A DNA stretch of 64,000 nucleotides, taken from contig JADZEM010000041.1 in the NCBI GenBank assembly GCA_020850535.1, positions 1 to 64,000 on the forward strand, given 5' to 3'. The notes beneath the pieces are model-generated. The model was not told the DNA's origin. It made no database searches and was given only the letters and a program-made list of their open reading frames with translations. This stretch comes from Chloroflexota bacterium (GTDB taxonomy: Bacteria; Chloroflexota; UBA6077; JACCZL01). A program made the position numbers and the translations under genes. Positions 13,826-23,563 of the stretch are shown one piece after another. Position 1 is the stretch's first letter. Every line of letters starts with the position of its first letter.

Positions 13826-13915
13826 GCGCCCAACGATACCATGAGCCAACCCCGCGCGGAGTTGCGGATCATCGCCGTGCGGGCCTGAGCAGCGGTCTCG
13901 ATGGGGAGGGGTGGA

Positions 13916-16441
13916 TTGGCTGACCGACCACTGGCCGGCCTGCGTGTGCTGGAGCTGGCAACCGGAATCGCCGGGCCGTACGGCGGCAAGCTGTTGGCCG
14001 ATCTCGGCGCGGACGTGCTCAAGGCCGAGCCGCCAACGGGCGACCCATCCCGTGCCCGCGGCCCGTTCCGCGCCGGCCGCCCGGACCCCGAGGCGAGCGG
14101 CTTCTACCTCTACCTGAACAGCGGCAAGCGCGGCATCACGCTCGATCTGGAGAGCGCCGAGGGCCGGGCCGCCCTGCTCGACCTCGTGGGCGGCGTCGAC
14201 GTGCTGCTGGAGAGCTTCGCGCCGGGCCTGCTGGATCGGTTTGGCGTGGGCGTCGAAGCGCTCCAGGCCCGCAATCCCCGGCTGGTGGTCGTCTCGACGA
14301 CGCCGTTCGGGCAGTGGGGGCCGCGCTCGGGGTGGCAGGGCAACGACCTGATCGCCTTCCAGAGCTCGGGTTTCGCCTACGGCTTCCCCTCCCGCGAGAT
14401 CGAGGCCGCCGATCTGCCGCCATTGAATGCCCCCAGCCACGCGGGCCTGTTCCTGGCCGGCGAGATGGTGGCCGGGGCCGCGGTCCACGGCCTGCTGGTG
14501 GCCCAGCGCGACGGCGTCGGCAGCCACCTGGACATCTCCGAGCAGGAGGCCGTCAGCGCCGAGAACCAGGCCCAGCACAACGCCCTGGACCGGAAGGCCG
14601 GCGAGCGCGGCGGCTACGATGGCGGGGATGGCGGCGTCAGGAGGACGGTGGTCGAGAGCTCGGCCAACGCGACCGTCTTCTTCCTGCCCTGCCGCGACGG
14701 CTGGGTGGTGGTCTCGCCGCGCGAGGATCACCAGTGGGCGCGCTGGCTGGAAGTCATGGGCGGCCCGTCCTGGGCCGACGACCCCCGCTTTGCGACCAAG
14801 GCTGCCCGCCAGGACAACTGGCTGGTGCTGCATCCGCTGATCTGCGAGTGGAGCCGCCAGCAGGCGAAGCGCGACATCTTCGAGGCGGCCCAGGCCGAGC
14901 GGGTGGCCTGCTACCCGCTCGGCACGGCCACCGACATGCTGGAGCTGCCGCAGTTCGCCCATCGCGGCTTCTTTGTGGAGCAGGAGCATCCGACGCTCGG
15001 CACGCTCTCGTTCCCGGGCGTCTCGTACCAGTCGCCGGACGTGGCGCGCCCGCGGCCGACGCTGGCGCCGCGCCTGGGGCAGCACAACACCGAGGTCTAC
15101 GGCGAGCAGCTCGGCTACGACGCCGCGCGGATCGCCGAAGTCAGCGGCCAGGGACAGCGCAACGGCACGGACGGACCTCGCCCCCCCTTCCCTTCTCCTC
15201 ATAGGGGAGGGGCCGGGGGTGAGGTTTTCTCGAAGCCAGCCGCCCGGCCGTCGAACGGCCACCTGCCGGCATCCAAGCCGCTGGCGGGCGTCCGCATCGT
15301 CGACTTTAGCTGGGTGATGGCCGGGCCGATCTGCACCAAGTACCTCGGCGCGATGGGCGCTGAGGTCATCAAGATCGAGTCGAAGGCCCGCCCGGACCTC
15401 TCGCACCGCAACCCGTCCTGGGAGGAGCTGAACCCGGGCAAGCGCAGCATCACCCTGAACCTCAAGGACGAGCGCGCCCGCGACCTCGTGCGGCAACTAG
15501 TGGGCATCGGCGATGTCGTCATCGAGAACTTCTCGACGGGCGTCATGGAACGGCTCGGGCTGGGCTACCCGGCCCTGCGCGAGATCAACCCGCGCATCGT
15601 GATGGCCTCGGCGTCCGGCTTCGGGCGGACCGGGCCGCAGCGCGACCTGGTGGCCTACGGGACGCTGCTCCAGTGCTTCACCGGCTGGGCCAGCCTCTCG
15701 GCCTACCCCGACCGCGTCCCGACCTCCTCGGGCGGCGTCTGGACCGATCCGCTGACGGCCTGCATCGAGGCGTTCCTGCTGATGTCGGCGATCTACCGCC
15801 AGCGCAAAACCGGCGAAGGCGGCTTCTTCGACCTCTCGATGACCGAGACGATGATCGCCGCGCTGCCCGAGCCGATCCTGGCCTGGACCGTCGCCGGGCA
15901 GGTGCTGGAGCCTAGAGGCAACCGCGATCCGCTGGCCGCGCCGCAGGGGGCCTACCAGACGGCCGGCGACGACCGCTGGATGGCGCTGAGCGTGGCCGAC
16001 GACGCGGCGTGGCAGCGGCTGTGCGGCGTGCTCGGGCGGGCCGACCTGGCCGCCGACCCCGGGCTGGCGACGGCCGCCGGCCGGCGCGCGCGCCACGACG
16101 AGTTGGACGCGGTCATCGCGGCCTGGGTCCGCGACCGCGACGCACAGGAGACGGCGGCGCTGCTCCAGTCACACGGCATCGCGGCCACCCCGACGCTGAC
16201 GGCGCTGGACGTGGTCTCGGACGCCCATCTCGCGGCCCGCTCCTTCGTGAGCGAGGTCGAGAAACTGGGCGGCGGCACCCGCTACACGCTCGGCGCGCCC
16301 TGGATGGTGGACGGCGAGCGGCCGAACGGCTTCCGCCGCGCGCCCGAGGTGGGCGAGGACAACGAGTACGTCTTCAAGTCGCTCCTGGGACTCTCGTCGC
16401 AGGAGTACGACCGGCTCGTCGGCGAGCAGGTCATCTACTGA
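13916..16441 (+). CDS. Tandem two-domain CaiB/BaiF (class III) CoA transferase
   Basis: About 841 residues, twice the normal length. Residues 1-400 and 456-841 each form a CaiB/BaiF domain (starts LAGLRVLELATGIAGP and LAGVRIVDFSWVMAGP; nucleotide landmarks NSGKRGITLDLES and NPGKRSITLNLKD). Class III enzymes move CoA between carboxylic acids through an Asp-thioester in interlocked dimers. By eye, the Asp position is Ser174-His175 in the first domain but Asp611 in the second, so only the second half looks competent. The linker (about 412-452) is encoded by a CCTCACCCC-type intergenic repeat, suggesting a gene fusion. The TTG at 13916 follows GGAGGGG; an ATG at 13901 is an alternative. A crotonase gene follows. 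Confidence 0.88.
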   Translation: MADRPLAGLRVLELATGIAGPYGGKLLADLGADVLKAEPPTGDPSRARGPFRAGRPDPEASGFYLYLNSGKRGITLDLESAEGRAALLDLVGGVDVLLESFAPGLLDRFGVGVEALQARNPRLVVVSTTPFGQWGPRSGWQGNDLIAFQSSGFAYGFPSREIEAADLPPLNAPSHAGLFLAGEMVAGAAVHGLLVAQRDGVGSHLDISEQEAVSAENQAQHNALDRKAGERGGYDGGDGGVRRTVVESSANATVFFLPCRDGWVVVSPREDHQWARWLEVMGGPSWADDPRFATKAARQDNWLVLHPLICEWSRQQAKRDIFEAAQAERVACYPLGTATDMLELPQFAHRGFFVEQEHPTLGTLSFPGVSYQSPDVARPRPTLAPRLGQHNTEVYGEQLGYDAARIAEVSGQGQRNGTDGPRPPFPSPHRGGAGGEVFSKPAARPSNGHLPASKPLAGVRIVDFSWVMAGPICTKYLGAMGAEVIKIESKARPDLSHRNPSWEELNPGKRSITLNLKDERARDLVRQLVGIGDVVIENFSTGVMERLGLGYPALREINPRIVMASASGFGRTGPQRDLVAYGTLLQCFTGWASLSAYPDRVPTSSGGVWTDPLTACIEAFLLMSAIYRQRKTGEGGFFDLSMTETMIAALPEPILAWTVAGQVLEPRGNRDPLAAPQGAYQTAGDDRWMALSVADDAAWQRLCGVLGRADLAADPGLATAAGRRARHDELDAVIAAWVRDRDAQETAALLQSHGIAATPTLTALDVVSDAHLAARSFVSEVEKLGGGTRYTLGAPWMVDGERPNGFRRAPEVGEDNEYVFKSLLGLSSQEYDRLVGEQVIY
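15180..15235. repeat. Intergenic-type repeat now encoding the interdomain linker
   Basis: A C-run/GGGGAGGGG segment followed by GGGGGTGAGGTTTTC resembles the hairpins at 11188-11268 and 21216-21246, which are non-coding. Here it is read in frame as a Pro/Gly-rich linker between the two CoA transferase domains. Confidence 0.55.
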
Positions 16442-16518
16442 ACGATACCCACCACGACGATGGCGGCGCGCAACGGCTGCGTCTGACGCCCGAGCAATCA
16501 CGGAAAGGCACCACCAGC

Positions 16519-17337
16519 ATGGCAGAGAACGGCACGGCGCAGTACGAGTACGTGACCCGCGAGCAGACCGGGTCGATCATGCGGATCACCCTGAATCGCC
16601 CTGAGAAGCTGAACGCCATCGACTATCAGGTGGGCGCGGAGCTGTACGACGCCTTCGCGCTCTGCCAGGACGATCCGTCGATCCGCGCCATCATCCTGGC
16701 TGGCGCGGGCCGGGCGTTCTGCGCCGGCGACGAGCTCGGCCGCGAGCGCACCGCTGACGAGCAGCTATCGCTCAAGCGGCGCGGTCACATCAAGCACTAC
16801 GTCCAGGGGCCGGGCCGCTGGACCAGCACCGTCCGCCTGATGCGCAGCCTGCCCGCCCCGGTCATCGCGCGGGTCCAGGGCTACGCCTACGGGGCCGGCT
16901 TCAACCTGGCGCTCGGCTCGGACTTCCGCGTGATGGCGCGCGACGCGAAGCTGGCAACGCCATTCATCAAGCGCGGTCTCGCTACCGGCACCAACCTGCT
17001 CCAGCAGTACGTCGGCATCGGCAAGGCCATCGAGATGACGCTGCTCGGCGAGCCGCTCGACGCCGAGGAGGCGCTGCGGCTCGGGCTGGTCAACGAGGTC
17101 GTCGATCTTGCCGATCTCGACGTCGCCGTCGAGCGCTGGGCCGAGAAGCTGGCGAACGGGCCGAGCGCCGCCATCGGCCTGACCAAGCACGCCGTCTACC
17201 GGGGCTGGGACCACGACCCCGACGAGGCGTACTGGCACCAGGGCTCGGCGGTGGCCCAGGGGCGCGAATTGGAAGACCTTGCCGAGGGCGTGGCCGCTTT
17301 CAAGGAGAAGCGCCCGCCCGCGTTCACCGGACGGTAA
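16519..17337 (+). CDS. Enoyl-CoA hydratase/isomerase (crotonase) family protein
   Basis: A 272-residue crotonase-fold protein with the CoA-pocket and oxyanion segments RPEKLNAIDY, AGAGRAFCAGDELG and GYAYGAGFNLALGSDF. The two catalytic glutamates of classic hydratases (in GGGCE and QPE contexts) appear as Asn in GAGFN and Phe in TPF. Simple hydration is therefore doubtful; isomerase, hydrolase, dehalogenase or ring-cleaving activities remain open. GGAAAGG lies about 10 bp before the ATG. It follows the first double CoA transferase by 77 bp and precedes the Dpp-type importer, consistent with processing of a CoA ester made from an imported acid. Confidence 0.88.
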   Translation: MAENGTAQYEYVTREQTGSIMRITLNRPEKLNAIDYQVGAELYDAFALCQDDPSIRAIILAGAGRAFCAGDELGRERTADEQLSLKRRGHIKHYVQGPGRWTSTVRLMRSLPAPVIARVQGYAYGAGFNLALGSDFRVMARDAKLATPFIKRGLATGTNLLQQYVGIGKAIEMTLLGEPLDAEEALRLGLVNEVVDLADLDVAVERWAEKLANGPSAAIGLTKHAVYRGWDHDPDEAYWHQGSAVAQGRELEDLAEGVAAFKEKRPPAFTGR

Positions 17338-17445
17338 CGCAGCCGTTCGTTCGCAGTTCGACATCTTCGCGCCGCGCAACGATGCACGGCGTACCGCGCG
17401 ATCTCGCCACGTCCGACCGTGTGTGTCGGGGAAGGAGCCTAGGCG

Positions 17446-19338
17446 ATGAGGCGATTGGAAGGCCAGAGGGCGCTCACTCGGCGCTCGTTCTTACGAAGCA
17501 TGCTGGTGGTCGGGGCGGGCGCCTCGGCCGCCCTGATCCAGGCCTGCGGGCCGCAGGCGCCGGCCCCGGCGGCCGGCGGTGGGCAGTCGGCGGGCGCTGG
17601 CGCCCAGGCGAGCGGCCCGGTCGTCCCGACCTCGACCCCGCGCGCCGTACCGGCCACCCAGGCGCCGGCCGCGCAGGCAGCACCCGCGCAGACCGCGCCG
17701 GCTCAGGCTGCCCCGGCGGCTGGCGCGGCCCAGCCCACGGCAGCGCCGGCCGCAGCCGCGAAGCCGGCCGCCGCCGTGAACAATCGGCCGCCGCTGGTAC
17801 GCCAGCAGGACCCCGGCCCGCCGAAGCGCGGCGGCATCCTGGAGACCTCCGTCGGCAAGGATCCCGAGACGCTGGAGGTCATGCAGGCCGTCAACGGGCC
17901 GCTGCGGATCACCTCCAGCCTCGTCTACCGCCGGCTGGTCCAGTTCCGTGGCACCGACTACTACGACATCGAAGTCGAGCCGGACATGGCCGACTCCTGG
18001 ACGGTCTCGCCGGACGGCAAGACCTGGACGTTCAAGCTGCACCAGGGTATCAAGTGGCACAACGTCCCGCCGGTCAACGGCCGCGAGTTCACCTCGGCTG
18101 ACGTGGCCTGGACCGTCGAGTACTACAAGACGAAGTCCAAGGAGTACGCCTGGCTCTGGGAGTGGGTCTCGAAGGTCGAGACGCCGGACAAGTACACCGT
18201 CGTCTTCCACTCCGACAAGCCGAACGCCGAAGCCCTGCTCAACATGGCGGTGGACAACAACGCCATCGTCCCGAAGGAAGTCTTCGACCAGGACGGCAAC
18301 TACCGCTCGAAGATCATCGGGACGGGGCCGTACATCTGGAAGAACTGGGAGCCGGGCGTCAAGGTCGAACTGGTCAAGAACCCGGACTACTGGGAGGTCT
18401 CCGAGGTGGACGGCAAGCCGCTGCCGTACCTCGACGGGATCACCGCCTACATCATGCCGGACTACGCCACGCGGCTCGCGGCGTACCGCTCCGGCAAGAT
18501 CGCCGGGCACCGCTGGGGCTTCCAGGCCGCCCGCAACGACGTCGACAGCCTCTTCAAGGGGATGCAGGGCCAGCAGCGCTGGGACGGCGTCCACTTCCTG
18601 TCCGGCGGCGGCTTCACCCTGAACATCTCCAAGAAGCCGCTCGACGATCTGCGGGTCCGCCGCGCGATGTCGATGGCGCTCAACCGCGACGCCATCATCA
18701 AGGACGTCCAGCAGGGCGCGGCCCAGTGGGCCGGCTTCGTCACGGCCTCCTTCACCAAGTACGCCTGGCCCGAGGAGAAGCTCAAGGGGCTGGAGTTCCT
18801 GAAGTACAACCCGGACGCGGCCCGCGCCCTGATCAAGGAGGCCGGCGCCGAGGGCGGCAAGATCATCATCGACCTGCACCCGGACACCACGCCGGGCGCA
18901 AAGGTGCTGGTCGAGATGGCCCAGCAGATGTGGAAGGACATCGGGCTGGACCCGGTCATCGACCCGACGGACACCCCGGCCTCGTACGCCAAGCGCCAGT
19001 CCGGCGACTTCATGGTCTTCGGGAACGGCGTCGGCTTCAGCTCGGCGTCCATCGACGCGGGCACCCGCCAGCTCTACCACTCCGAGGGCCAGCGGAACTA
19101 CACCCGCAACAAGGATCCCGAGTTCGACAAGCTGGCCGATGCCCAGGCCATCGAGCTGGATCTGGAGAAGCGCAAGCAGCTTGTCGATCAGATCCAGCAG
19201 AAGATCTACGACAACATGTGGGTCATCCCCCACTACGACGCCATCGACACGCTGCTCAACCAGCCGTGGGCGAAGAACTGGGGCTTCCACTGGCAGCTCG
19301 GGTGGGTCCACTCCGAGCGCATCTGGATCGACAAGTAA
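17446..19338 (+). CDS. Dpp/Opp-type solute-binding lipoprotein (SBP family 5)
   Basis: A 630-residue binding protein. The leader has a twin-arginine-like RRSFLRS motif and a lipobox ending LIQAC at residues 31-35, so it is probably an exported lipoprotein. A long Ala/Pro/Gln linker (about 36-115) follows. The mature domain has the family-5 pattern: PDMADSWTVSPDGKTWTFKL near the N-terminus, then RRAMSMALNRDAII, then NPDAARALIKEAG. Ligands of this family are peptides, opines, sugars or acids. AAGGAG precedes the ATG. The two permease genes follow with almost no spacing; no ATPase genes are here. Confidence 0.93.
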   Translation: MRRLEGQRALTRRSFLRSMLVVGAGASAALIQACGPQAPAPAAGGGQSAGAGAQASGPVVPTSTPRAVPATQAPAAQAAPAQTAPAQAAPAAGAAQPTAAPAAAAKPAAAVNNRPPLVRQQDPGPPKRGGILETSVGKDPETLEVMQAVNGPLRITSSLVYRRLVQFRGTDYYDIEVEPDMADSWTVSPDGKTWTFKLHQGIKWHNVPPVNGREFTSADVAWTVEYYKTKSKEYAWLWEWVSKVETPDKYTVVFHSDKPNAEALLNMAVDNNAIVPKEVFDQDGNYRSKIIGTGPYIWKNWEPGVKVELVKNPDYWEVSEVDGKPLPYLDGITAYIMPDYATRLAAYRSGKIAGHRWGFQAARNDVDSLFKGMQGQQRWDGVHFLSGGGFTLNISKKPLDDLRVRRAMSMALNRDAIIKDVQQGAAQWAGFVTASFTKYAWPEEKLKGLEFLKYNPDAARALIKEAGAEGGKIIIDLHPDTTPGAKVLVEMAQQMWKDIGLDPVIDPTDTPASYAKRQSGDFMVFGNGVGFSSASIDAGTRQLYHSEGQRNYTRNKDPEFDKLADAQAIELDLEKRKQLVDQIQQKIYDNMWVIPHYDAIDTLLNQPWAKNWGFHWQLGWVHSERIWIDK

Positions 19339-19340
19339 GC

Positions 19341-20291
19341 ATGCTGAGGTACGTCGCGCGGCGGCTGCTCCTGATGCTCCCGGTGCTCTGGGGCGTCAGC
19401 CTGATCGTGTTCATCGCGATCAGGCTGGTCCCCGGCGACGTCATCCTGGCCAAGATGCAGGGCGAGTTCTCCGCCAAGCCCGAGCAGATGGCCAGAATGC
19501 GTGCCGAGCTTGGACTGGACGTGCCGGGCTACGTCCAGTACTTCCGATGGATTGGCGGCGTCGTCACGGGCGACTTCGGCGTCTCGATGAACACGTTCCG
19601 CCCGGTCCTCAGCGAGATCGTGAGCCGCATCCCGATCACCGCTGAGCTGGCGATCCTCTCGCTGTTCTTCGCGGTGGTCATCGCGGTGCCGATCGGGGTG
19701 GCCTCGGCCGTCTACCAGGACACCTGGATCGACTACACCGGGCGACTGCTGGCGATGCTGGCGCTCTCGATACCGAGCTTCGTCATCGCCAGCGCGCTGA
19801 TCCTCTTCCCGTCGATCTGGTGGGGCTACTTCCCGCCGATGGGACTCACGGCGCTGACGAAGAATCCGCTGGAGAACCTCCAGCAGGTGCTCCCCGCCAC
19901 GATGGCCCTCGGCGCGATCCTGGCGGGACAGGTCATGCGCCTGACCCGCTCGTCGGTGCTGGAGGTGCTCCGCAGCGACTTCGTGCGGACGGCCCGCGCG
20001 AAGGGGCTGAGCGGCTACGCCGTCATTGCGAGGCACGTCCTGCGGGCCTCGCTGATCCCCGTCATCACGCTGATCGGCAGCGACTTCGGGCGTCTGCTGG
20101 GCGGGACGGTGGTCATCGAATCGATCTTCGCCTTCCCCGGCATGGGCCTGCTGACGCTGACCTCGATTCAGCTTCGGGACTACACCCAGCTTCAGGGCAA
20201 CGTCCTGTTCATCGCGGCGGTCTTCGTGCTGTTCAACCTGCTGGTCGACTTGCTGTACGGCGTGCTCGACCCGCGCATCAGGTACAGCTAG
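19341..20291 (+). CDS. ABC transporter permease, DppB/OppB type
   Basis: A 316-residue inner-membrane protein with about six hydrophobic segments, beginning LLLMLPVLWGVSLIVFIAIRLVPGD. The ATPase-coupling EAA loop lies near RTARAKGLSGYAVIARHVLR and the family end reads LLVDLLYGVLDPRIRYS. It pairs with the DppC-type gene that starts 3 bp after its stop. The start ATG is two bases after the binding-protein stop, so translation is probably coupled. Confidence 0.94.
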   Translation: MLRYVARRLLLMLPVLWGVSLIVFIAIRLVPGDVILAKMQGEFSAKPEQMARMRAELGLDVPGYVQYFRWIGGVVTGDFGVSMNTFRPVLSEIVSRIPITAELAILSLFFAVVIAVPIGVASAVYQDTWIDYTGRLLAMLALSIPSFVIASALILFPSIWWGYFPPMGLTALTKNPLENLQQVLPATMALGAILAGQVMRLTRSSVLEVLRSDFVRTARAKGLSGYAVIARHVLRASLIPVITLIGSDFGRLLGGTVVIESIFAFPGMGLLTLTSIQLRDYTQLQGNVLFIAAVFVLFNLLVDLLYGVLDPRIRYS

Positions 20292-20293
20292 CC

Positions 20294-21211
20294 ATGAGTA
20301 CGCGAGCAGCAGCCATCACCGAGGTTGGCAGCCTGCCGGCCGTGGGGGCGCGCAGCCCTCGCCGCCGGCTGCTGTCGCAGATCCAGCGTCGGCCGCTCGG
20401 GGCGCTGGCCCTGGGCATCGTGATCCTGGTCATTGCCGTCGCGATCCTGGCGGACGTGATCTCGCCGCAGGATCCGTATCGCATCTTCAACGGGCAGACC
20501 CGCGCCGCGCCCGGCGTCGTGGCCGCGAACGGGGTGCCGTTCGTGCTCGGCTCGGACGAGTCCGGCCGGGACATCCTGAGCCGGATCATCCACGGGGCGC
20601 GCGTCTCCCTGTGGGTGGGCGTGCTCGCCGTGGCCGTCGGGACGCTCGGCGGCACCATCGTCGGGGTGGTCAGCGGCTACCGAGGCGGCCGGGTCGATCT
20701 GATCCTGCAACGGGTGATGGACAGCGCCCAGGCGATCCCCTCGCTGGTGCTGGCGCTGCTCCTGATGGCCGTCCTCGGCTCCAGCCTGACGAACGTGATC
20801 CTGGCGATTGGCATCGTCCAGATCCCGTACACCAACCGGGTGGTGCGGTCAGCGGTCCTCAGCCTGAAGCAGGAGACGTTCGTCGAGTCGGCGCGGGCCA
20901 TCGGCGGCACCGACACCTGGATCATGCTGCGCCACATCGTCCCGAACGTCTTCGCGCCGATCATCATCATCAGCACGTCCGGCCTGGGCGGCGCGATCCT
21001 GACCGAGGCGTACCTCAGCTTCCTGGGGCTGGGCGCGCCCCCGCCGATCCCGTCCTGGGGCGGCATGGTCAGCACGGCCCGGACCTACATGCTGACGAAC
21101 CCGCAGTTGCTGCTGGCGCCGGCCGTGGCGCTGAGCGTCACCGTACTGGCCTGGAACCTGGCCGGCGACGCCCTGCGAGACATCCTCGATCCGCGCTTGC
21201 GGCACCGGTAG
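20294..21211 (+). CDS. ABC transporter permease, DppC/OppC type
   Basis: A 305-residue membrane protein with the DppC N-terminal extension and GSDESGRDILSRIIHGARVSL-type entry motif. It has five to six membrane segments and the coupling loop FVESARAIGGTDTWIMLRHIVPN. It ends DALRDILDPRLRHR, as is usual. It completes the membrane part of the first Dpp-type importer; ATPases must be supplied in trans, for example by the pair at 43435-45284. Confidence 0.94.
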   Translation: MSTRAAAITEVGSLPAVGARSPRRRLLSQIQRRPLGALALGIVILVIAVAILADVISPQDPYRIFNGQTRAAPGVVAANGVPFVLGSDESGRDILSRIIHGARVSLWVGVLAVAVGTLGGTIVGVVSGYRGGRVDLILQRVMDSAQAIPSLVLALLLMAVLGSSLTNVILAIGIVQIPYTNRVVRSAVLSLKQETFVESARAIGGTDTWIMLRHIVPNVFAPIIIISTSGLGGAILTEAYLSFLGLGAPPPIPSWGGMVSTARTYMLTNPQLLLAPAVALSVTVLAWNLAGDALRDILDPRLRHR

Positions 21212-21215
21212 GAAT

Positions 21216-21246
21216 ACCTCACCCCGCAGGGGGCTGGGGGGTGAGG
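21216..21246. terminator. Hairpin after the dppC-like gene
   Basis: ACCTCACCCC (21216-21225) and GGGGTGAGGT (21237-21246) pair perfectly around an 11-base loop, five bases after the permease stop. It is terminator-like and belongs to the repeated CCTCACCCC group; no U-tract follows. Confidence 0.6.
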
Positions 21247-21283
21247 TTCCCCCACACTGCGAATGTTCTCTGGAGCAACTGAT

Positions 21284-23563
21284 ATGACGGGTCCACTGGC
21301 CGGTATTCGCGTCATTGATTTCGGGCAGTACATCGCCGGGCCGCTGACGGCGATGCTGCTCGCCGATCACGGGGCGGACGTGATCCGTGTGGACCCACCG
21401 TCTGGGCCAACCTGGAAGACGCCGGCCAACGCCACCTGGAACCGGGGCAAGCGCAGCATCGCGCTGGACTTGAAGCAGGCCGCGGATCGGGAGGCGGCGC
21501 AGGCGCTGATCGCCGGGGCGGATGTCGTCGTCGAGGGGTTCCGCCCGGGCGTCATGGACCGGCTCGGGCTGGGCGCGTCAGCAGCCCTGGCCGCCGATCC
21601 GCGCCTGATCTACTGCTCGCTGCCGGGCTTCGCCTCGGACGATCCACGCGCGCAGATGCCCGGCTGGGAGGGCGTCATCGGCGCGGCCACGGCGACCTAC
21701 CGCCCGCCGATGGACACGCCGAAGGGGCCGCCCGCCTACACGGCGATCCAGATCGCGTCGCACTTCGCGGCGTTCCAGGCGGCCGTCGCCATCGTGATGG
21801 CGCTGGTCGCACGGGAGCGCTCGGGCCTGGGGCAGCGCATCGAGATGCCGCTGTTCGACGCCACGTTCGCAGCCATCGGGGCGCACGGGCTGCTGATCGA
21901 CGGCGGCGTGGCGGGCGGCCGGCCTGACGACTTCTGGGGCGGCCTCTTCGAGTGTGGGGATGGCCGCTGGGTCTTCTTCAGCGGCTCGACGCCCCGGTTC
22001 CGCCGCCGGTTTGTCGATGCGGCCGGTATCCAGAGCTGGGAGGCCGAGGGCCTGCTCGACATCCCTCGGATGACGCGCGATCCGGAGCTCGGCTCGCAGC
22101 TACGGCCACGCCTGCGGGCGCTGTTCAAGACCCGGCCGGCCCTGGAATGGCAGGAGCTTGGCGCAGCGGCCGGCGTCCCGATCACCGTCTCACGGACCAG
22201 CGCCGAGTGGATCGCGGAGGACCACGCACGGGCGGCCGGCATCGTGCGAGAGGTGGCCGACCCGGCGCTCGGCCCGACGTGGCAGCCGGGCCGAGCCGTG
22301 CGACTCTCGGCCTTCCCAGACGAGCCGTTGCGGCCGGCCTCCCGCCTGGACGCCGACCGCGCGAGCGTCCTGGCCGAGGCTGCTCGGCCGGCCGGCACGG
22401 TCACCTCGACGCACGCTGCGCTGACCCAGGCGCTCGGCGGCATACAGGTGGTGGACGTCTCGCTGGTGCTGGCCGGGCCGACGGCTGGCCGGACCCTCGC
22501 GGAGTACGGCGCGCGCGTCGTCAAGATCAATGGGCCGCGCGAGGAAGGGGCCGGCTACCGCACGAGCGTCCACCGCTACCACACCGACGTCAACCGCGCG
22601 AAGGAGACGATCCTGCTCGACCTGAAGGACGAGGCCGGCCGGGACGTCTTCTTCAACCTCGTGCGGCAGGCCGACGTGGTGGTGCAGAACTTCCGCCTGG
22701 GCGTCCCCGAGCGCATGGGCATCGGCTACGAGCAGCTTCGGGCCATCAAGCCAGACCTGATCCACGTCTCGGTGAGCGCGTTCGGCTACAGCGGTCCGTG
22801 GGGCAATCGCCCGGGCTACGAGCCGAACGCCCAGGCCGCGACGGGCCTCCAGACCCGTTTCGGCGGCGACGACGCACCGCTGATGCAGCCGTTCGCCGTC
22901 AACGACTACGGCACCGGCCTGCTCGGGGCGTTCGGGGCGGGGCTGGCGCTCTACCACCGCGCGAAGACCGGCCAGGGGCAGCGCGTCGAGGCGGCGCTGG
23001 CCTACACCGGCACGCTGCTCCAGTCCGCGCACCTGAACGACTACGCCGGCAAGGTCTGGGACGAGCCACGTGGTCGGGCTGCGCGCGGGACCGGGCCGCT
23101 CCACCAGATGTACCAGGCGGCGGACGGCTGGCTGTTCCTGGGCGCGAGCGAGGATCAGGTGTCGATGCTGGCATCCGTGGACGGGCTGGCCGGCTGCGAG
23201 GCCCTGGCGGGCGACGCGCTGGCCGCGTTCCTGGAGGCGCGTCTCGTGGCCGGCAGTGTCGAGCAGTGGGTGACGGCGCTGACGGCGGCCGGGCTGGCTG
23301 CGGCGCGGGTGGTCACCTCAGTGCCGGCCGTGATGGTCGATCCGTGGGTGGTCGCGCACGGCCTGAGCGTGACCCGCCCCCATGACACCGGCGAGCAGAT
23401 CACGACGGTCGGCCCCGGGGTGCGCCTCTCGCGGACCCCGGCGACGCCCGGGCGGCCTGCCGCCACGCCGGGCGCAGACGCGCGCGCGGTGCTTCAGCAG
23501 GCCGGCTCGGCAGAGGCCTTCCCCGCGCTTGCCGAGCGCGGGGTGGTGCTGGAGCGCCCGTAG
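21284..23563 (+). CDS. Second tandem two-domain CaiB/BaiF CoA transferase
   Basis: A 759-residue protein with two class III CoA transferase domains. Domain one starts LAGIRVIDFGQYIAGPLTAML; domain two starts near residue 385 with IQVVDVSLVLAGPTAGRTLA. As in the protein at 13916, the position of the catalytic Asp is Ser159-His160 in the first half (QIASHFAAF) and Asp541 in the second (AVNDYGTG). The halves are joined by a short linker (AGTVTSTHAALTQALGG) rather than a repeat-derived one. It probably transfers CoA to or from a carboxylic acid imported by the adjacent transporter. GGAG eight bases upstream supports the ATG at 21284. Confidence 0.88.
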   Translation: MTGPLAGIRVIDFGQYIAGPLTAMLLADHGADVIRVDPPSGPTWKTPANATWNRGKRSIALDLKQAADREAAQALIAGADVVVEGFRPGVMDRLGLGASAALAADPRLIYCSLPGFASDDPRAQMPGWEGVIGAATATYRPPMDTPKGPPAYTAIQIASHFAAFQAAVAIVMALVARERSGLGQRIEMPLFDATFAAIGAHGLLIDGGVAGGRPDDFWGGLFECGDGRWVFFSGSTPRFRRRFVDAAGIQSWEAEGLLDIPRMTRDPELGSQLRPRLRALFKTRPALEWQELGAAAGVPITVSRTSAEWIAEDHARAAGIVREVADPALGPTWQPGRAVRLSAFPDEPLRPASRLDADRASVLAEAARPAGTVTSTHAALTQALGGIQVVDVSLVLAGPTAGRTLAEYGARVVKINGPREEGAGYRTSVHRYHTDVNRAKETILLDLKDEAGRDVFFNLVRQADVVVQNFRLGVPERMGIGYEQLRAIKPDLIHVSVSAFGYSGPWGNRPGYEPNAQAATGLQTRFGGDDAPLMQPFAVNDYGTGLLGAFGAGLALYHRAKTGQGQRVEAALAYTGTLLQSAHLNDYAGKVWDEPRGRAARGTGPLHQMYQAADGWLFLGASEDQVSMLASVDGLAGCEALAGDALAAFLEARLVAGSVEQWVTALTAAGLAAARVVTSVPAVMVDPWVVAHGLSVTRPHDTGEQITTVGPGVRLSRTPATPGRPAATPGADARAVLQQAGSAEAFPALAERGVVLERP

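Follow-up and report, generated by a model that had tools for sequence, protein, structure and literature searches.

Frc, YfdE, and CaiB are class III CoA-transferases that form single-domain symmetric homodimers with two active sites. Asymmetric and two-domain members of the class have also been described. The benzylsuccinate CoA-transferase BbsEF is an asymmetric pair of separate polypeptides, of which BbsF has a CoA-bound Asp (D178; PDB entry 9FOL is titled “D178-CoA adduct”) and BbsE has a Tyr at the site (Tyr171). PtmU4, which acts in thiocarboxylic acid biosynthesis, has tandem domains in one chain, a poorly conserved linker, and a catalytic Asp in the C-terminal domain, shown by mutants to be D430 (PMC6006322). 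DddD, a DMSP CoA-transferase/lyase, has two CaiB domains (PMC7174347) in ∼820 amino acids, and its catalytic Asp is required (PMC4437653).

Proteins A and B, encoded in the window analyzed here (the first 64,000 nucleotides of contig JADZEM010000041.1 of a Chloroflexota bacterium; Table 1), are further cases of this described, little-characterized class, and A represents the BbsEF type in fused form. A sequence-only reading of the same DNA had suggested a distinct architecture, but the two-domain enzymes DddD and PtmU4 and the paired BbsE and BbsF were already known. Compared by description, A and B share the domain arrangement, the poorly conserved linker, and the C-terminal position of the catalytic Asp with PtmU4 and the two CaiB-like domains, approximate length, and catalytic Asp with DddD; they differ from PtmU4 in its biosynthetic role and from DddD in that neither a DMSP lyase function nor a ddd gene neighborhood is apparent here. 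Unlike BbsE and BbsF, A and B are each one chain, and the genes adjoining A are those of an importer and one enoyl-CoA hydratase. Frc, YfdE, and CaiB have the same fold as A and B, and their catalytic Asp is found in the C halves of both. A fused CoA-transferase of a Dinoroseobacter plasmid was considered as a DddD and rejected, as it adjoins a dimethylformamidase-like gene and not ddd genes.

Table 1. Features of the locus encoding proteins A and B (positions within the window)
Feature	Position	Strand	Basis or remark
Protein A, fused two-domain class III CoA-transferase, 846 aa	13901..16441	+	Two PF02515 stretches; AF2 pLDDT 82.6, pTM 0.88
N half of A, BbsE-type, without catalytic Asp	13928..15169	+	Groups with BbsE (SH-aLRT 100 for clade)
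Ser179-His180 of A (“Ser-His” of the sequence-only reading), 4 and 3 residues before catalytic column	14435..14440	+	Alignment; model helix starts at 181
Leu183 of A, residue in catalytic column of N half	14447..14449	+	Alignment
Copy of 18-base dispersed genomic repeat within disordered linker of A	15207..15224	+	7 exact genome copies including this one
C half of A, BbsF-type, active-looking	15272..16438	+	Alignment, tree of halves, structural match
Asp616 of A, predicted nucleophile, aligned with BbsF D178	15746..15748	+	Invariant among 12 aligned fused proteins
Enoyl-CoA hydratase/isomerase (PF00378)	16519..17337	+	76% identical homologue beside A homologue in G016
Solute-binding protein (family 5) of Dpp/Opp-type importer	17446..19338	+	PF00496
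Dpp/Opp-type permease 1	19341..20291	+	PF00528, PF19300
Dpp/Opp-type permease 2	20294..21211	+	PF00528, PF12911
Protein B, fused two-domain class III CoA-transferase, 766 aa	21263..23563	+	Tandem PF02515; AF2 pLDDT 88.6, pTM 0.93
Ser166 of B, catalytic column of N half	21758..21760	+	Ser in 14/14 family members
Asp548 of B, predicted nucleophile of C half	22904..22906	+	Invariant in fused alignment

Both reading frames are intact, and each encodes a single chain with two complete CoA_transf_3 domains (PF02515; 606 bits for A and 528 bits for B, at a cutoff of 23.3), which upholds the initial description of both as fused double-domain CoA-transferases. Neither protein reached an NCBIfam equivalog cutoff, and no NCBIfam model matching DddD or PtmU4 was among their matches. 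The full-chain AF2 models, whose input alignments left out rows from plasmid records, are confident for both proteins. The linker of A has a pLDDT of ∼28 in its model and differs in length among relatives; in the fused relative L026, it is ∼11 residues long. The repeat located in the linker of A is GC-rich and in frame with the protein, and with ≤2 mismatches it has 77 copies in the genome, compared to 33 for a reversed control.

The catalytic column, i.e., that of Frc D169, CaiB D169, and the YfdE Asp, was identified in an alignment of 107 domains, including these three Escherichia coli proteins and both BbsEF chains. All residues named in the sequence-only reading are present; numbered from the starts at 13901 and 21263, S174-H175 and D611 of A become S179-H180 and D616, and S159-H160 and D541 of B become S166-H167 and D548. 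Alignment with Frc and CaiB bore out both the proposed Asp in domain two of each protein, with D616 and D548 in the catalytic column, and its proposed absence from domain one, where the column is occupied by Leu183 in A and Ser166 in B. Replacement of the Asp by Ser-His, which had been proposed for both proteins, stands for B but not for A, in which the Ser-His lies four residues upstream of the column; the alignment of this half is gapless from the catalytic column to the downstream Gly. In the predicted structures, D616, D548, and S166 are each found where a long helix begins (residues 615 to 637, 546 to 569, and 164 to 187, respectively), as is the catalytic D165 in the structure of the class III enzyme Mct of R. 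castenholzii (helix 163 to 186) (PMC9196870). The corresponding helix in the N half of A (residues 181 to 204) includes Leu183 and excludes S179-H180. Alignment and helix positions rule out a shared Ser-His as a homologous feature, and its presence in both A and B is a coincidence.

Across the relatives, the column holds Asp in all 16 single-domain proteins, all 26 BbsF-type halves, and all 14 B-family C halves, compared to 7/26 BbsE-type halves and none of the 14 B-family N halves, all of which have Ser; the following His of B is not kept by its relatives. The N-half residue in this column varies within the A family: it is Leu in A, Glu in L026 (57% identical), and, in other members, Ala, Pro, Thr, Tyr, Gln, His, Trp, or Cys. 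A single site is the common state of such pairs but not a strict requirement, because some relatives of A (L027, L055, L067, the Ancylobacter loci, and L046) retain Asp in both partners. N halves have also lost other residues that active enzymes conserve: the residue of the N96 column is found in 12% of BbsE-type halves, the residue of the Frc Q144 column is kept in 0/14 B-type N halves, and Gly is found in the S131/G130 column in 0/14 of the same halves. By sequence, α-methylacyl-CoA racemase is one of the solved proteins near the N half of B; it was considered and rejected, as B has Ser166 and not Asp in the column.

Taken as a whole, A and B are very probably single-chain pseudo-heterodimeric class III CoA-transferases with one working site each. 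The presence of the Asp in both C halves and in neither N half supports the earlier suggestion of a covalently joined pair in which only the C-terminal site is competent. By analogy with the chemistry of known relatives, the C half would provide the nucleophile (D616 in A or D548 in B), which would attack the acyl-CoA donor to form an aspartyl anhydride and then an aspartyl-CoA thioester, from which CoA would be transferred to the acceptor acid. Each pocket would be formed jointly by both halves, one contributing its large domain and the other its small domain, and we propose that the N half is retained because it completes the live site around D616 or D548, the mirror pocket of A and B being, in the simplest reading, dead. 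This explanation draws on sequence for domain content, column residues, clades, purifying selection, and gene neighborhood and on known relatives for the chemistry and the shared pocket; we infer the substrate class and the link to the importer.

The kinship of A with BbsEF is indicated by several lines of evidence. First, the best solved relatives of A by sequence are BbsE for the N half (35% identity) and BbsF for the C half (34%). Second, the BbsF and BbsE chains are the top structural matches of the A model, with TM-scores to the target of ∼0.91 and ∼0.85, and D616 aligns with BbsF residue 178. Third, in a tree of halves built by quick search, the N half of A belongs with BbsE to a 26-member clade and the C half with BbsF to a 28-member clade, and each of these clades mixes fused proteins with adjacent two-gene pairs. 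The halves of B fall in two other clades of that tree, in which all relatives are fused, and do not group with BbsEF. A is a fused BbsE- plus BbsF-type pair, split two-gene relatives of which are common, and it probably arose through fusion of a BbsE-type gene with a BbsF-type gene; B is a member of another family, in which all proteins are fused and the Ser of the dead site is invariant. The occurrence of the two proteins around one importer is not evidence of one recent fusion, which the phylogeny of the N and C halves does not favor, with A placed among BbsE, BbsF, and split pairs and B in an all-fused family. In the split BbsE/BbsF-type pairs L027, L029, L056, L062, and L066, the partners are in the same frame with exactly one stop codon between them, and loss of that stop would therefore yield the fused form.

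Common deep ancestry is nevertheless compatible with AU tests, which do not reject a single clade of N halves (P = 0.31) or of C halves (P = 0.605; here the joined tree has the higher score). One ancient fusion ancestral to both A and B, with the split pairs arising by later fission, would accord with these results but seems unlikely, as split pairs are scattered over the A family on both halves, at least six changes of fusion state are required on the BbsE-type rows, and the N halves of A and B are just 27% identical, less than the identities of the A halves to BbsE and BbsF. Because A nests among split pairs, the fusions that gave rise to A and B look separate, which is the better reading but is not proven.

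Alternatively, the N halves might have a different activity of their own (a lyase, a hydratase, or a Ser-based acyl step), making A and B bifunctional with two distinct sites. DddD provides a precedent, in that its two-domain chain has both transferase and lyase activity, and the Ser in the dead site is invariant in the B family, in which the N half is better conserved than the C half (mean identity, 48.8% versus 42.9%). However, a structural role accounts for this conservation equally well, the position drifts in the A family (L, E, A, P, T, Y, Q, and others), and the B-type N halves lack other conserved pocket residues; bifunctionality is quite improbable. Decay of the N halves into remnants without function, which the loss of the nucleophile and other pocket residues could suggest, has almost no chance of being correct, as the N halves of both families remain full length and their dN/dS in fused relatives with measurable divergence is about 0.09 to 0.27 (0.13 to 0.19 for the C halves), values that are approximate, with synonymous change near saturation in most pairs.

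The N half evolves more slowly than the C half in 5/5 pairs of the B family (L031/L032 being nearly equal) and faster in the Roseomonas pair of the A family (dN/dS of 0.27 versus 0.15). These ratios indicate that the dead N halves of single-site pairs such as A and B are clearly maintained under strong purifying selection, in agreement with the original argument that the architecture is functional rather than decaying. With the residue assignment corrected, A and B provide material on the loss of a nucleophile in one half of an interlocked dimer under continued selection.

The hydratase, the solute-binding protein, and the two permeases encoded between A and B are on the same strand with short gaps, and no importer ATPase gene was seen in the operon within the window. 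Elsewhere in this genome, Dpp/Opp permeases are also found near paired or fused CoA-transferases on contigs C49 and C60, and in genomes G015 and G016 they lie near B homologues. A family-5 binding protein is located within 5 kb of three of the four paired or fused loci in this genome, compared to about 1 of 10 single-domain loci (Fisher P of ∼0.04; the test was selected once the data were known). The genome (7.65 Mb) shows a large expansion of Dpp/Opp-type importers, with 92 family-5 solute-binding protein genes, and because of this number the importer link is weak; the association of importers with CoA-transferases in this genome is no more than suggestive. A and B probably activate a carboxylic acid that enters through the Dpp/Opp-type importer and would then be processed by the enoyl-CoA hydratase, and their likely role is CoA activation of an organic acid.

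The reverse arrangement of residues also occurs. In this genome, C60 encodes a fused protein of 822 amino acids (G000:C60:5911-8373, equivalent to L040:1912-4374) with Asp in its N half and Gly in its C half, and a neighboring two-gene pair has Asp and then Tyr. A fused protein of G136 (L086) has Asp followed by Gln, and two-gene pairs in G220 and G387 have Asp followed by Ser; fused proteins with this mirror order are thus found in two genomes of the phylum, this genome and G136. In the tree of halves, those of the C60 fused protein cluster with those of the C60 pair, outside the A and B families. These loci, with Asp first and a non-Asp residue second, indicate that one nucleophile is lost in either order. 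A broader proposal, in which half-dead pairs arose repeatedly, in either order, and the invariant Ser of B is part of a second working site that makes B bifunctional, has little likelihood. No description of the mirror order was found in a literature search aimed at other questions and, if the reading of C60 and G136 is true, it would be an undescribed variant. Because this one genome holds split, fused, and mirror-order pairs, fusion and second-site loss can be compared in it side by side. C60 also contains a 691-amino-acid open reading frame (L040:11256-13328) that immediately precedes an enoyl-CoA hydratase gene. It encodes a degenerate CoA-transferase part and then a domain broken off at position ∼200 of 366, reflecting a truncation, a frameshift, or an assembly error.
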